Assembly: GCA_902633335.1 (NCBI GenBank)
Contig: CACPFY010000002.1
Location: 1 to 64,000, forward strand
Reading direction: 5' to 3'
DNA: 64,000 bases
DNA from: an uncultured Pelagibacteraceae bacterium
Lineage (GTDB): Bacteria > Pseudomonadota > Alphaproteobacteria > Pelagibacterales > Pelagibacteraceae
Below are positions 30,578 through 34,687 of this stretch, piece after piece. The notes under the pieces were generated by a model. That model was not told the DNA's origin, searched no databases, and worked only from the letters and a program-made list of their open reading frames with translations. The translations under genes were made by a program, and so were the position numbers. Within the stretch, counting starts at the first letter, position 1, and each line of letters opens with the position of its first letter.

Positions 30578-31525
30578 ATGAAAGTTCTTGTTATACAAAC
30601 TAGGTACGGCATAGGTGATATGCTTATATTTCTACCCTACCTAAAGGCTATTTCCCAGAAAACTGGAGTTAAAGTGTCAATACTCGCTAAGGAAACCTCT
30701 AGAGCTAGTCAATTATTTAAAGATGAAAATTTTTTAGATGAAGTAATAAAATTAGATGGCACCAATGATAAAATTTTAGGTTTTTCAAAACTTGCAAAAG
30801 AAATTAAAAATAAAAATTTTGATAAAGTATTTATTTTTAATGGTTCAATTAGATACAGACTTTTAGCTTTTTTTTCAGGAATAAAAGAAATTTATCAGTA
30901 TCCCTTTTTTATTTCAAAAGATGTCATATTTCAAACTGCAAAAGTTTTTACTGAAAATTATGTTAATAAAATTTTATCAACTGAACCTAAATTAAATTTA
31001 AACCCCAAGTCTATTGAAGATGCAAAAAAAAAATATAATTTAACAAATAATGTCAAAAATGTTGTACTTGGAATTTCTGCTTCAGGACCAACAAAAAGGT
31101 GGGATATAGAAAATTTTATCAATCTAGCAATTAAATTAAATAAAATTCAAAATTGTAAATTTATTATTGCTGCTAGCAAAAAAGATCAAAAAATAATCGA
31201 TAAAATTAAAAATTCTGAGATAGGTAAAAATTGTTTTTCATTAGAAAATCTTTCAATTCAAGAAATACTTCCTATAATTAAAAATTGTGACCTTTATATT
31301 GGTAATGATACAGGTTTCATGCATATAAGCTCAGCTCTAGGGATAAAATCATTAGGTATATTTGTTGACTCACCTGCTTACTCCTACAGCGGGTACTCTG
31401 ACAATATCACAGCTATTGTACCAGTGGGTGAAACTCTTGAAAGCACAACTCACGACACTTTAGGTAAAGACAAAATTTCTTTTGAGGAAGTATTTGAAAA
31501 AACAAAAAAATATTTGATCAACTGA
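30578..31525 (+). CDS. Glycosyltransferase family 9 (heptosyltransferase-like)
   Basis: A 315-residue GT-B enzyme. N-terminal IQTRYGIGDMLIFLPYLKA and C-terminal GNDTGFMHISSALGIKSLGIF are the GT9 signatures. Family members add heptose or related sugars to the inner lipopolysaccharide core using ADP-sugar donors. It is divergent from the DapA-like gene and isolated from other lipopolysaccharide genes except kdsD/lptBC elsewhere in the window. Confidence 0.85.
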   Translation: MKVLVIQTRYGIGDMLIFLPYLKAISQKTGVKVSILAKETSRASQLFKDENFLDEVIKLDGTNDKILGFSKLAKEIKNKNFDKVFIFNGSIRYRLLAFFSGIKEIYQYPFFISKDVIFQTAKVFTENYVNKILSTEPKLNLNPKSIEDAKKKYNLTNNVKNVVLGISASGPTKRWDIENFINLAIKLNKIQNCKFIIAASKKDQKIIDKIKNSEIGKNCFSLENLSIQEILPIIKNCDLYIGNDTGFMHISSALGIKSLGIFVDSPAYSYSGYSDNITAIVPVGETLESTTHDTLGKDKISFEEVFEKTKKYLIN

Positions 31526-32018
31526 AGTCGGACTTGATAATTTTTTCTTTAGCCTCATTAACTAATTGGCTTAATCTTTCACTATTTACGTCTCGATTCA
31601 TATCGGGATGTATTTTTTTTTGTAATTTCGCAGCAGTTTTTAAAACATCCTCTTTTGAGCATCCTTTTTTTAAACCTAAAATTTTGTAGCTTTCTTCAGT
31701 AGATATACTTGTGGTTGCTTGTGAACTTTTATTACCAAATCTTCCTGAGCTCCTAAGAACTTGTATTAGTCTCCATAATTGAAATAGTTGTAAGGCCGTA
31801 AAACCTTTTACTTTTAAACCACTTAATAGAATTAATAAAAAGGGGAGTGAAAATATATATTTACCTCCAATTGCTAAAATTGCTGCCAAAAAGATAGATA
31901 TTACTATGGCTAATCTTTTTAAAAATTGGGCAATTTTTTTAGTGCTAGTTTTGGCAAACCAATTAAGAAATAAATAAACAATGACAAATATGATAATTCC
32001 AATTAAAAACCAGTTCAT
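31518..32018 (-). CDS. Membrane-anchored J-domain protein
   Basis: A 166-residue protein with two N-terminal hydrophobic helices (about residues 3-20 and 35-65) and a C-terminal J domain (about 110-165) containing YKILGLKKGCSKEDV and the HPD motif in KKIHPDMNRD. It resembles the Tim14/Pam18-like proteins of alphaproteobacteria. It would recruit DnaK at the membrane. It overlaps the GT9 gene by eight bases tail to tail. Confidence 0.85.
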   Translation of the reverse strand: MNWFLIGIIIFVIVYLFLNWFAKTSTKKIAQFLKRLAIVISIFLAAILAIGGKYIFSLPFLLILLSGLKVKGFTALQLFQLWRLIQVLRSSGRFGNKSSQATTSISTEESYKILGLKKGCSKEDVLKTAAKLQKKIHPDMNRDVNSERLSQLVNEAKEKIIKSDFS

Positions 32019-32032
32019 ATAATTATATTATA

Positions 32033-34111
32033 ATGAGTATACCAGAATTAAAAAAAATAAAGAGCGAGAAAAAGTATCACAATACTACTCTAAAAGATGA
32101 TTATTCTTGGGTCGATCAGCCTGATATTTTAGACGTTTTAAAAAATCCAAATAAATTACATCCTGAAGTAAGAAAGTACATTGAAGAAAATAATTCATTA
32201 ACCGAAAAATACTTTAGTGATGTTAAGGATCTTCAAAAAAAACTTTTCGATGAAATTAAATCTAAAATTAAACTTGATGACACTTCATTAAAATTTAAAG
32301 ATCGAAAATACTTTTATTGGAGTAAAACTGAAGCTAAGGGAAACTATGGAAAAAGATTAAGACAAATAATCGATAAATCGAAACCAGAAGAAATTTATTT
32401 TGATGGAGACTTAGAAAAGAAAAAATCTGGATCTGAGTATTTTGGCCTAGGTAGTGTAAGTGTTTCTCATAATGATGACTGTATGGCATATTCTTTAGAT
32501 TTAAAAGGATCAGAGTACTACACTATTTATTTAAGAAATTTAACTAACAACAAAAATTTACCTGATCAAATTGAAAATACTAGTGGAAGTATTACTTGGT
32601 CTTTAGATAGTAAAAGTTTTTTCTACTCTAAGCTAGATAAATTTCATAGACCTAGAAAAATTTATCAACATTTTTTAGGCAAGCCAGTTGAAAGTGATAA
32701 GCTTATTTTTGAGGAAAGAGATGAGACTTTTACATGCAGTATTAGTTTAACATCAGATGAAAAATATTTCCTAATTTCTACTTCAGATCATATTACCACT
32801 GAAGAGCATTTCTTTGATTCGACTAGTGATGACATTAAACCAAAATTATTTAGAAAAAGAAAAAAAGACGTACGTTATTCTTTAGACTCCTGGAAAGATT
32901 ATTTCTACGTTCATACCAATGAAGATGCAAGGGATTACAAAATTTTAAGATGTAAAAAAGACGATATTGAAAATTTGGAAGAATTTGTTCAACCAAAAAA
33001 AGAGACAGTGATCGGTGGTTTAGATTTTTTAGACGATTATATTATTAGAGCAGAGAAATCTGATGCGATACCAAAATTATATGTACGAAACATTAATACA
33101 AATGAGGAGGAAGAAATAAAAATTTCTAATGAACCTATCGGTGTCCCAGGTGCAAGCTTAATGCAAAAGGACACTAACACTTCAAAAATCAGAATTAGTT
33201 GGGAGAGTATGGCGACGCCAGGTAAAATATTTGAATACGATATTAAAACAAAAGAAAAAAAACTAGTTAAAGAAGTTGAAATTCCCTCTGGTCATGATCC
33301 CAATAAATATGTTGTTGAAAGAATAAAAGCTAAGTCACATGATGGACGTATGATACCCATAAGTTTGGTAAGACTTAAAAATTCAAAACAAGACGGAATG
33401 TCAAAAATATTGTTATATGCTTACGGAGCATATAAGCATAGTGTGTCCCCATCTTTTAGTGCATCAAGATTTTGCCTAGTTGATAGAGGTATCACATTTG
33501 CTATCGCACATATAAGAGGTGGAGGAGATTTAGGAGACAATTGGCACACGGAGGGGAAAAAGAAACTTAAGAAAAATACTTTTCACGATTATATCGCATG
33601 TGCTAATCATTTGATTGAACAAAGGTATACACATAAAGGTGGATTATGTTTCTACGGAGGTAGCGCTGGTGGACTTACAGGAGGCAGTGTAGCAAATATG
33701 GCTCCTGAATTATTTTTCGCAATGCTATTGCTAGTGCCTTTCGTAGACACAATGACAACGATGCTAAATGAGAAACTTCCACTTACACCCGCCGAATGGG
33801 AGCTTTGGGGAAATCCAATTAAAAGTAAAGAGTACTTTGATTACATACTATCTTATTCTCCCTATAATAATTTGAGTAAAAAAAAATACCCACCGATGTT
33901 AATCACTTCATCAATATTTGATAATAGAGTTTTATATTCTGAACCTGTAAAATATATCGCTAAGTTAAGAGATGTTAAAGAGGACAACAATGAACAATTA
34001 TTAAAATGCAAAATGGAAGCAGCCGGTCACGGAGGTATGAGTGGTAGAGATAATGCAATTAAAGAACTTGCTGAGGAATATAGTTTTATTTTAAAGAACG
34101 CTAAAGTTTAA
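32033..34111 (+). CDS. ptrB: Oligopeptidase B (S9 prolyl-oligopeptidase family)
   Basis: A 692-residue serine peptidase. An N-terminal beta-propeller domain (about 75-400) is followed by an alpha/beta hydrolase domain with IRGGGDLGDNWH, the nucleophile in CFYGGSAGG, the Asp region TSSIFDNRV and His in AAGHGGMSGR. These match oligopeptidase B, which cleaves short peptides after basic residues in the cytoplasm. There is no signal peptide. It is divergent from the J-domain gene with a 14-base spacer. Confidence 0.9.
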   Translation: MSIPELKKIKSEKKYHNTTLKDDYSWVDQPDILDVLKNPNKLHPEVRKYIEENNSLTEKYFSDVKDLQKKLFDEIKSKIKLDDTSLKFKDRKYFYWSKTEAKGNYGKRLRQIIDKSKPEEIYFDGDLEKKKSGSEYFGLGSVSVSHNDDCMAYSLDLKGSEYYTIYLRNLTNNKNLPDQIENTSGSITWSLDSKSFFYSKLDKFHRPRKIYQHFLGKPVESDKLIFEERDETFTCSISLTSDEKYFLISTSDHITTEEHFFDSTSDDIKPKLFRKRKKDVRYSLDSWKDYFYVHTNEDARDYKILRCKKDDIENLEEFVQPKKETVIGGLDFLDDYIIRAEKSDAIPKLYVRNINTNEEEEIKISNEPIGVPGASLMQKDTNTSKIRISWESMATPGKIFEYDIKTKEKKLVKEVEIPSGHDPNKYVVERIKAKSHDGRMIPISLVRLKNSKQDGMSKILLYAYGAYKHSVSPSFSASRFCLVDRGITFAIAHIRGGGDLGDNWHTEGKKKLKKNTFHDYIACANHLIEQRYTHKGGLCFYGGSAGGLTGGSVANMAPELFFAMLLLVPFVDTMTTMLNEKLPLTPAEWELWGNPIKSKEYFDYILSYSPYNNLSKKKYPPMLITSSIFDNRVLYSEPVKYIAKLRDVKEDNNEQLLKCKMEAAGHGGMSGRDNAIKELAEEYSFILKNAKV

Positions 34112-34118
34112 ATACCAT

Positions 34119-34147
34119 CTTGAAAATTTAAAAAAAGATACCATATA
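34119..34147 (+). promoter_or_regulatory. Sigma-32-type heat-shock promoter of hsp20
   Basis: CTTGAA at 34119-34124 and a CCCCATNT-like box TACCATAT at 34139-34146 are separated by 14 bases, matching the RpoH consensus in sequence and spacing. Start of transcription would be near 34153, giving a leader of about 50 bases. Confidence 0.7.
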
Positions 34148-34152
34148 AATCT

Positions 34153-34203
34153 TGTTGATTGCCGAATGGGATCAACATTAACCTTGCTAACAAAGGAGGA
34201 AAT
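34153..34203 (+). promoter_or_regulatory. ROSE-like RNA thermometer in the hsp20 leader
   Basis: Two hairpins fill the predicted leader. The first pairs TGTTGAT (34153-34159) with ATCAACA (34171-34177). The second pairs CCTTGCT (34182-34188) with the Shine-Dalgarno AGGAGG (34194-34199) around loop AACAA, leaving G34186 bulged. The TTGCT segment opposite the Shine-Dalgarno with a bulged G is the signature of ROSE elements, which melt at raised temperature. Found by eye; not folded by program. Confidence 0.65.
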
Positions 34204-34647
34204 ATGACAAGTAAGGATCTATCAATCTTTAATTCACTAAGACCTTTAAGCATTGGATTCGATGATATGTTTGATCAGTTCGAGTCTATGTTAGGAAATG
34301 GCAGTCTTGCTGTACAAGGCAATTACCCGCCATATAACATCAGAAAAGCAGGCAAAGATAAATATGCTATTGAAGTAGCAGTTGCTGGCTTTAACAAAAA
34401 TGATGTTGAAGTAGAATATGAAGATAATCTTTTAACTGTGAAAACTAAACAAGTTAAAAGCACTGAGAAAAAAGATGGTGAAGAAATAATTCACAGAGGT
34501 ATTTCTCAAAGATCTTTTGCTAGATCGTTTACAATTGCAGATGATGTAAAAGTAGGTGACGCTGAGTTAAAAGATGGACTTTTGACAATTTCTTGTGAAA
34601 AAATTGTACCAGAAGCAAAGAAAAAAAGACTTATTGAGATAAAATAA
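34204..34647 (+). CDS. Small heat-shock protein Hsp20/IbpA family
   Basis: A 147-residue alpha-crystallin-domain chaperone. The start at 34204 has AGGAGG four bases upstream; an earlier in-frame ATG at 34159 lies inside the leader hairpin and is rejected. The N-terminal DDMFDQFESML resembles IbpA. The core shows YAIEVAVAGFNKNDVEVEYEDN and ends with GLLTISC. It holds unfolded proteins during heat stress. The heat-shock promoter and the thermometer-like leader support this. Confidence 0.95.
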   Translation: MTSKDLSIFNSLRPLSIGFDDMFDQFESMLGNGSLAVQGNYPPYNIRKAGKDKYAIEVAVAGFNKNDVEVEYEDNLLTVKTKQVKSTEKKDGEEIIHRGISQRSFARSFTIADDVKVGDAELKDGLLTISCEKIVPEAKKKRLIEIK

Positions 34648-34656
34648 GTTTGCCTT

Positions 34657-34687
34657 ACTTGCGGAGTAAGCTCCGCAAGTAAATTTT
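34657..34687 (+). terminator. Rho-independent terminator after hsp20
   Basis: ACTTGCGGAG (34657-34666) pairs perfectly with CTCCGCAAGT (34671-34680) around TAAG, followed by AAATTTTTT. This 10-base stem is the strongest terminator in the window and makes hsp20 monocistronic. Confidence 0.9.

Follow-up and report, generated by a model that had tools for sequence, protein, structure and literature searches.

The hsp20 locus

In the window, by which the whole analysed stretch of 64,000 nucleotides is meant, a gene for an IbpA-like small heat-shock protein lies downstream of a prolyl oligopeptidase gene whose open reading frame ends at 34111, and its promoter begins just beyond that stop codon. 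The start codon of hsp20, read directly from the sequence, is the ATG at 34204-34206. The closest named match of its product is the Hsp20 of the uncultured Pelagibacteraceae isolate AG-910-C03 (99% identity), and the host is a SAR11 relative. On the forward strand the promoter is followed by GTTGATTGCCGAATGGGATCAAC (34154-34176), ATTAA, CCTTGCTAACAAAGGAGG (34182-34199) and then the ATG. A sequence-only reading of this DNA had described a leader of about 50 bases filled by two hairpins, and this description holds: the leader is 50 bases long and both hairpins occupy it where they had been placed. The features of the locus are as follows.

34119-34124, forward strand: -35 element CTTGAA of the RpoH (sigma32) type, recognised from sequence and conservation
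34142-34147, forward strand: -10 element CATATA with the core CCATAT, recognised from sequence (column conservation of CCATAT 0.77-0.99 in 137 leaders)
34154-34176, forward strand: hairpin 1, 7 base pairs with a bulged G at 34161, CC/GG and the loop GAAU, recognised from covariation, fold, ROSE layout and the fixed distance to the -35 element
34182-34199, forward strand: hairpin 2, with the anti-Shine-Dalgarno arm CCUU[G]CU (34182-34188), the loop AACAA (34189-34193) and the Shine-Dalgarno arm AGGAGG, recognised from sequence, conservation and class-wide evidence
34194-34199, forward strand: Shine-Dalgarno (SD) sequence AGGAGG, recognised from sequence, 4 bases before the ATG
34204-34647, forward strand: hsp20, encoding the IbpA-like small heat-shock protein of 147 amino acids (PF00011, 69.5 bits; 40% identity to Escherichia coli IbpA in alignment A3)
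34655-34682, forward strand: stem-loop with a T tail resembling an intrinsic terminator (1 found, 0.2 expected in shuffles)

The terminator-like stem 3' of the gene suggests that hsp20 is a single-gene unit. Two genes away, the reverse strand (31518-32018) encodes a small J-domain protein (PF00226, 32.3 bits) in which hydrophobic segments can be seen by eye. Across the genus, hsp20 was not found in 41 of 101 genomes, many of which are incomplete, and it is absent also from one of the seven genomes that are at least 90% complete.

A heat-shock-type promoter at a fixed distance from hairpin 1

Judged by the consensus of RpoH promoters and the usual geometry of promoters, CTTGAA and CATATA, separated by a spacer of 17 bases (34119-34147 overall), form a promoter of the heat-shock type, as had been proposed from the sequence. 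In support of the proposal, rpoH was detected in the same genome (360 bits), and 137 of the 139 distinct leaders from Pelagibacteraceae carry a [CA]TTGAA element; the full pattern CTTGAA-N12-18-CHHAT occurs in 102 of these 139, against 0.36 in shuffles. The -35 element stands 29 bases from the base of hairpin 1 in 116 of 131 family leaders and 28-30 bases from it in 128, unlike the linker between the two hairpins, which varies from 4 to 14 bases. From the promoter spacing, the mRNA is predicted to start at the base of hairpin 1 or within one or two bases of it.

Genome-wide, the strict promoter pattern is found at 6 sites, against 1 for the reversed control. A second match (G000:C6:67844-67871, locus L230) directly precedes a gene whose product, to judge by the start of its translation, resembles Lon protease. 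According to passages of a published account, SAR11 cells possess two sigma factors only, sigma32 and a sigma70 (PMC13198564).

Hairpin 1 is conserved by compensatory change

The leaders examined from SAR11 derive from 80 named loci and further genomes and amount to 179, of which 150 are distinct over 75 bases. In the window, hairpin 1 (34154-34179) folds with -8.6 kcal/mol (z -3.04), a value equalled by none of 200 shuffles, and the whole leader has a z of -2.31, with 2 of 200 shuffles as good. Over 135 distinct family leaders, 99.1% of the 1212 cells of hairpin 1 are paired, and changes on both sides of a pair are seen in 108 cells, distributed over five of the nine pairs; the covariation score was reached by none of 500 shuffles, and controls with slid partners never exceed 49.1% of paired cells. 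The compensatory changes that had been suggested as a check of the leader among other SAR11 strains are thus present in its first hairpin. Over the whole order, 130 of 150 distinct leaders have a stem of at least five contiguous pairs below the bulge, and 3 have one of three to four pairs. The strict apex pattern is missing in 17 of the 150, namely L144, L145, L147, L180 and all 13 from the sister family f115 (L157 included), in which the first hairpin has a different apex.

Hairpin 2 as a probable ROSE-type cover of the ribosome-binding site

The hallmark of ROSE elements, as given in passages of Krajewski et al. (2013, PMC3669281), is the pairing of U(U/C)GCU with the SD, and non-canonical pairs in the sensor core are described there for ROSE-like elements. 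In the window this signature stands at 34184-34188, opposite the SD at 34194-34199, with one bulged G (34186). Of the 150 distinct leaders of the SAR11 order, 149 have it immediately before the SD, the only miss being L157, which is truncated by a contig end. Both U and C are found at its variable position across the order; f115 has UCGCU, as do L146 and L147 of genus g117. Of 135 family leaders, 133 can form the four core pairs of hairpin 2 in the ROSE register, and all 135 can form the pair that follows. The outermost pair is present in 101 leaders and missing in 34, which belong mostly to the ACUUGCU group and mostly have A opposite G.

Within the family, the near-invariance of this hairpin leaves little for comparative analysis to work on. 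In the 49 rows of alignment A2, four of six pairs are invariant and none shows a double-sided change, so that covariation in A2 is uninformative for want of variation, and support for the core has to be drawn from outside the family. The loop AACAA is likewise nearly invariant in the A2 rows, for which pairing gives no reason. A competing register, in which CCUU pairs with AAGG, is preferred energetically (-2.9 vs -1.3 kcal/mol at 37 C). The register of the sequence-only reading is therefore adopted on comparative evidence, that is, the U or C opposite G and the covarying flanks described below, and not on energy. The ROSE geometry that had been claimed for hairpin 2 is accordingly upheld by the signature, the bulged G and the flanks across the class, but folding energy favours the other register. 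A match to the 16S rRNA tail was not obtained in the host's own incomplete genome assembly.

The leader is common across SAR11 and related forms precede many hsp20 genes of the class

A covariance model, R1, was built exclusively from SAR11 family leaders, using 49 of the 96 rows of alignment A1 that carry CUUGCUAA(C/U)A; at hairpin 2 the remaining 39 of the 135 rows are displaced by one base in A1 or have a different sequence. On the 64 kb window R1 scores 81 bits at the leader, the next best place reaching 10.1 bits. Within the genus, every one of the 60 genomes in which hsp20 was detected has a strong match (at least 68 bits) and none of the 41 without hsp20 has one; 12 of 20 further genomes also match strongly. 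Among 240 genomes of the class, 20 have a match at E <=0.1; setting aside three genomes of the own family, 18 rows from 17 genomes are left, and 7 of these rows are followed by an HSP20-like gene. The five best matches outside the family are all upstream of hsp20 genes, and the other 11 rows are most likely due to chance. When applied to 20 chosen loci, the model found the first hairpin of a known ROSE match, L112 (20 bits, E 0.0009), and did not find L113 or L114.

In the sister family f115, R1 matched 5 of 12 leaders, with an E value of 0.014 for one and of 0.2-0.7 for the other four, and all 12 complete leaders have a match to [CA]TTGA[ACT] in the 150 bases searched. By eye, the f115 leaders (L148-L160) contain hairpin 1, a middle hairpin and AAUC[G]CU/AGGAUU, with the flanks changed to A-U pairs. 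Set against these three hairpins, the two of the window's own family (f1) represent a form without the middle hairpin, which suggests that the middle hairpin was lost in Pelagibacteraceae.

The wider sample of alphaproteobacterial hsp20 leaders was drawn by protein family among the matches listed, as 30 loci and the 100 next places, skipping the SAR11 rows G000 and G198; four of these 130 loci (L232, L236, L254 and L259), in which the domain could not be placed, were dropped to give 126 usable leaders. Among the matches listed, the signature with a following SD is present in 66 of the 126, from 50 of 71 genomes (examples are L256, L264, L283, L289, L300, L302 and L330), and the 59 other permutations of the motif occur in the same leaders with a mean of 8.5, the next best, an overlapping shift, reaching 37. 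A hairpin 1 of the ROSE plan is seen in 51 of the 66 signature-bearing leaders and in 9 of the 60 others, against about 0.7 of 66 in shuffles. This hairpin is separated from the motif by 7-14 bases at 13 loci, compact as in SAR11, and by 28-74 bases at the other 38. Of the 51 leaders with hairpin 1, 37 have [CA]TTGA[ACT] within 55 bases upstream of it, 31 of them at 35-42 bases.

Pairing beyond the core of the SD hairpin was assessed in 67 leaders, including six representatives of the SAR11 order, with the best AGGA register allowed and the same freedom granted to the shuffles; these flank statistics ignore relatedness, and several genomes contribute more than one locus. The helix extends beyond the core by a mean of 2.69 base pairs, against 1.29 +/- 0.14 with the arms shuffled (0 of 2000 as high), and at least three flank pairs are formed in 33 of the 67 leaders against 11.4 expected. 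The pair types at flank position -2 comprise U-A, C-G, U-G, A-U and G-C. With the first AGGA register held fixed, pairs are found at -1 in 33 of 58 leaders (22.9 in shuffles) and at -2 in 44 of 58 (33.8), and no excess over shuffles is seen at -3 to -6. Covariation in hairpin 2, none of which appears in the A2 rows of the family, is thus present in its flanks across the class. On these counts the promoter, hairpin 1 and the SD hairpin look like one conserved module.

Relation to known thermometers

A fourU thermometer has a run of four U opposite the SD; the anti-SD arm here is CCUUGCU, with no such run, and the fourU reading was rejected, as was a CIRCE/HrcA reading, the latter on general background. 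The window leader, compared with Rfam at strict thresholds and with all 4227 families at E <=10, matched no thermometer family and no ROSE model, RF00435, RF01832 (ROSE_2) and RF02523 (ROSE_3) included. The lax matches obtained (mir-787, SQ2397, LSU_trypano_mito and sroH) lie far below the gathering scores and are regarded as chance. ROSE_2 does recognise the positive control, the leader of E. coli ibpA, at 100.4 bits. With the gathering score of 45 bits for RF00435 not reached, the element is not filed under that family. That score is, however, reached by none of 20 signature-bearing alphaproteobacterial hsp20 leaders tested, and it was missed in all 115 class genomes searched, three of which match below the threshold. 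The ROSE-model comparison suggested by the sequence-only reading thus returned no Rfam match, but since leaders with the full signature fail equally, the result does not refute a ROSE reading. The RF00435 model looks too narrow, and the class sample indicates, at the level of sequence, that leaders of putative ROSE type on alphaproteobacterial hsp20 genes are far commoner than the current Rfam model finds.

The likeness to described elements is nevertheless considerable. The RF00435 ROSE shares with SAR11 a first hairpin composed of a stem, a bulged G, CC-4 nt-GG and a further stem, together with a terminal UUGCU/AGGA hairpin; unlike the window leader, it includes a hairpin between these two, and its terminal stem is longer. 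RF01832 ROSE_2 of E. coli ibpA has a bulged-G hairpin followed by CUCGCU...AGGAG, where SAR11 has CUUGCU...AGGAG, although the overall layout differs. Closest in plan are the short ROSE-like leaders of Pseudomonas ibpA described in passages of PMC3669281, which comprise a stable first hairpin and a short second one that pairs U(U/C)GCU with the SD, in a leader of 61-62 nt (50 nt in SAR11) on a sigma32-dependent hsp20/ibpA gene. Those thermometers are proven by experiment and have a GC-rich first hairpin, whereas the SAR11 element is predicted; their sensor hairpins range from -4.1 to -7.6 kcal/mol, and hairpin 2 of SAR11 is weaker, at -2.9 kcal/mol for its best fold at 37 C, although program settings may differ (PMC3669281). 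The features common to the ROSE-like class, namely the signature at the SD with a bulged G, the position in the 5' UTR of a small heat-shock gene, an extra 5' hairpin and a promoter of the sigma32 type, were all found at this locus.

With respect to earlier reports, Stav et al. (2019, PMC6429828) mention one 'possible RNA thermometer' in strain HIMB5 of SAR11; it comes from the same clade and could be the same element, although the passages on it name no gene and the words 'heat shock' are absent from the main text. The words 'thermometer', 'hsp' and 'heat shock' are absent from the main text of a 2009 scan of Pelagibacter ubique (PMC2704228), and an element on the SAR11 hsp20 leader is not described in the available passages of PMC9111926, PMC2864753, PMC6429828, PMC2965389 and PMC11109978. 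SAR11 may already be listed in a survey of ROSE elements from 2005 to which PMC4166951 refers.

Predicted folding and the response to temperature

Folding over a range of temperatures gives a gradual opening with no clear switch, and the outcome shifts with the amount of coding sequence included: with 9 coding bases the SD is predicted to be unpaired to an extent of 0.25 at 10 C and 0.31 at 37 C, and with 30 coding bases to an extent of 0.27 at 4 C rising to 0.49 at 37 C. The melting profiles of relatives vary, those of L006, L012 and L146 being nearly flat, those of L145 and L161 mostly open, and that of L079 closing with warming. The E. coli ibpA leader, which a passage of PMC3669281 counts among the ROSE-like thermometers that have been studied, is mis-folded by the same folding model. 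Because the model fails on this control, no melting temperature is drawn from it. At 37 C the mean ensemble energy of hairpin 2 is -4.0 and -3.5 kcal/mol in two sequence groups of the family (43 and 21 distinct leaders), against -8.7 kcal/mol in 66 other alphaproteobacterial leaders, and the lower stability of hairpin 2 in SAR11 may be an effect of low G+C.

In silico, the energy of hairpin 2 at 37 C changes from -2.9 kcal/mol to -5.1 upon removal of the bulged G, to -4.2 upon conversion of the G-U pair to G-C and to -8.0 kcal/mol with both changes. In Pseudomonas putida, as reported in passages of PMC3669281, the double change shut the element, removal of the G alone left it responsive to heat (6.8-fold) and U-to-C alone abolished most of the response. 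The modelled stabilisation by bulge removal or a G-C pair would agree with the ROSE mechanism. It had further been proposed that the melting point would have to suit cool seawater, and this part of the proposal is not sustained: hairpin 2 is identical in the window, in HIMB058 (L029) and in PRT-SC02 (L070), the last of which we take to be a deep-trench strain, giving no sign of tuning to habitat, and the predicted melting is gradual and uninformative.

Interpretation and alternatives

The hsp20 leader of SAR11 is thus, very probably, a compact two-hairpin ROSE-like RNA thermometer under a heat-shock promoter. The promoter sequence, the two hairpins, their conservation across SAR11, the covariation and the relation to the ROSE layout are properties of the sequences themselves, and in these respects the sequence-only reading stands; the exception is the tuning to cool seawater, which finds no support. 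The start site, the melting and the temperature control of the leader are inferred. RNA polymerase carrying RpoH would transcribe from the first base of hairpin 1 or the adjoining base, and hairpin 1 would fold into a stable structure that caps the 5' end of the transcript and remains closed. Hairpin 2 would sequester AGGAGG with CCUU[G]CU, holding it weakly owing to the bulged G and a G-U pair, such that warmth could open it, allow the ribosome to bind and lead to the synthesis of Hsp20. Heat would then act at two levels, with RpoH mediating its effect on transcription and hairpin 2 its effect on translation.

A different sensor is conceivable, in which the leader serves mainly as a landing site for Hsp20 itself: free Hsp20 would block its own translation, aggregates would relieve the block, and protein aggregation would be what is sensed. 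Such feedback, which could act alongside a thermometer, seems unlikely as the main function. It draws on E. coli IbpA, which represses its own translation via the 5' UTR and, according to passages of PMC10474464, needs Arg93 and an aromatic residue at position 34 for this. The equivalent of Arg93 is kept in all 136 distinct Hsp20 proteins of the SAR11 order and that of Tyr34 in 135, so that feedback of Hsp20 on the leader would be possible; E. coli IbpB has Gln at the Arg93 position and Phe at the Tyr34 position. Hairpin 2, together with its loop, also varies less among the A2 rows than pairing alone would require, as might be expected of a site for a protein. Among the same 136 proteins, the equivalent of Arg97 is conserved in 132 and replaced by Lys in 4. 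However, Lys98, which passages of the same study describe as needed in E. coli (PMC10474464), is replaced by Ser or Thr in 123 of the 136 and is Lys in 13, and the ROSE signature is tied to thermometers in the papers cited.

It might also be argued that the leader does not regulate by temperature at all, with hairpin 1 as a stabilising 5' cap, hairpin 2 a weak fold surrounding a very strong ribosome-binding site and RpoH alone in control. The fixed distance of hairpin 1 from the promoter is as would be expected of a cap; hairpin 2 is weak in comparison with the rest of the class (-4.0 and -3.5 vs -8.7 kcal/mol), opens gradually and lacks its outermost pair in the 34 leaders noted above. Control by RpoH alone nonetheless offers no account of U(U/C)GCU upstream of the SD in 149 of 150 leaders of the order and 66 of 126 of the class, and it leaves the covarying flanks of hairpin 2 unexplained, which makes it very unlikely. 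Operators typically sit at transcription start sites, and the inverted repeat of hairpin 1, positioned at the predicted start, could be a DNA operator for a repressor, but this is barely credible given that its stem changes freely with compensation, that its apex and layout match an RNA family and that about 239 of its 1212 cells, around a fifth, are G-U pairs, a proportion that points to RNA and would not be favoured in a DNA palindrome.

The thermometer reading can be extended to a combined sensor at seawater temperatures in cells with few regulators, in which hairpin 2 would open gradually over about 10-30 C instead of switching at heat shock, and Hsp20, through its Arg93 and Tyr34 equivalents, would bind and close the leader. 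A single minimal element would then report both RNA melting and protein aggregation, and the middle hairpin would have been lost in the course of genome streamlining; this broader scheme is doubtful.

Significance for SAR11 and the Alphaproteobacteria

If the thermometer reading is true, it would place a heat-sensing RNA in SAR11, in cells with two sigma factors only, and SAR11 bacteria are called the most abundant heterotrophs of the marine plankton in passages of PMC13198564. Its wider value may lie in a ROSE module that would be common on alphaproteobacterial hsp20 genes and that was missed at Rfam thresholds in the 20 leaders tested. The leader is short, and it should provide a readily tested construct for the temperature at which a marine oligotroph switches on its chaperones.
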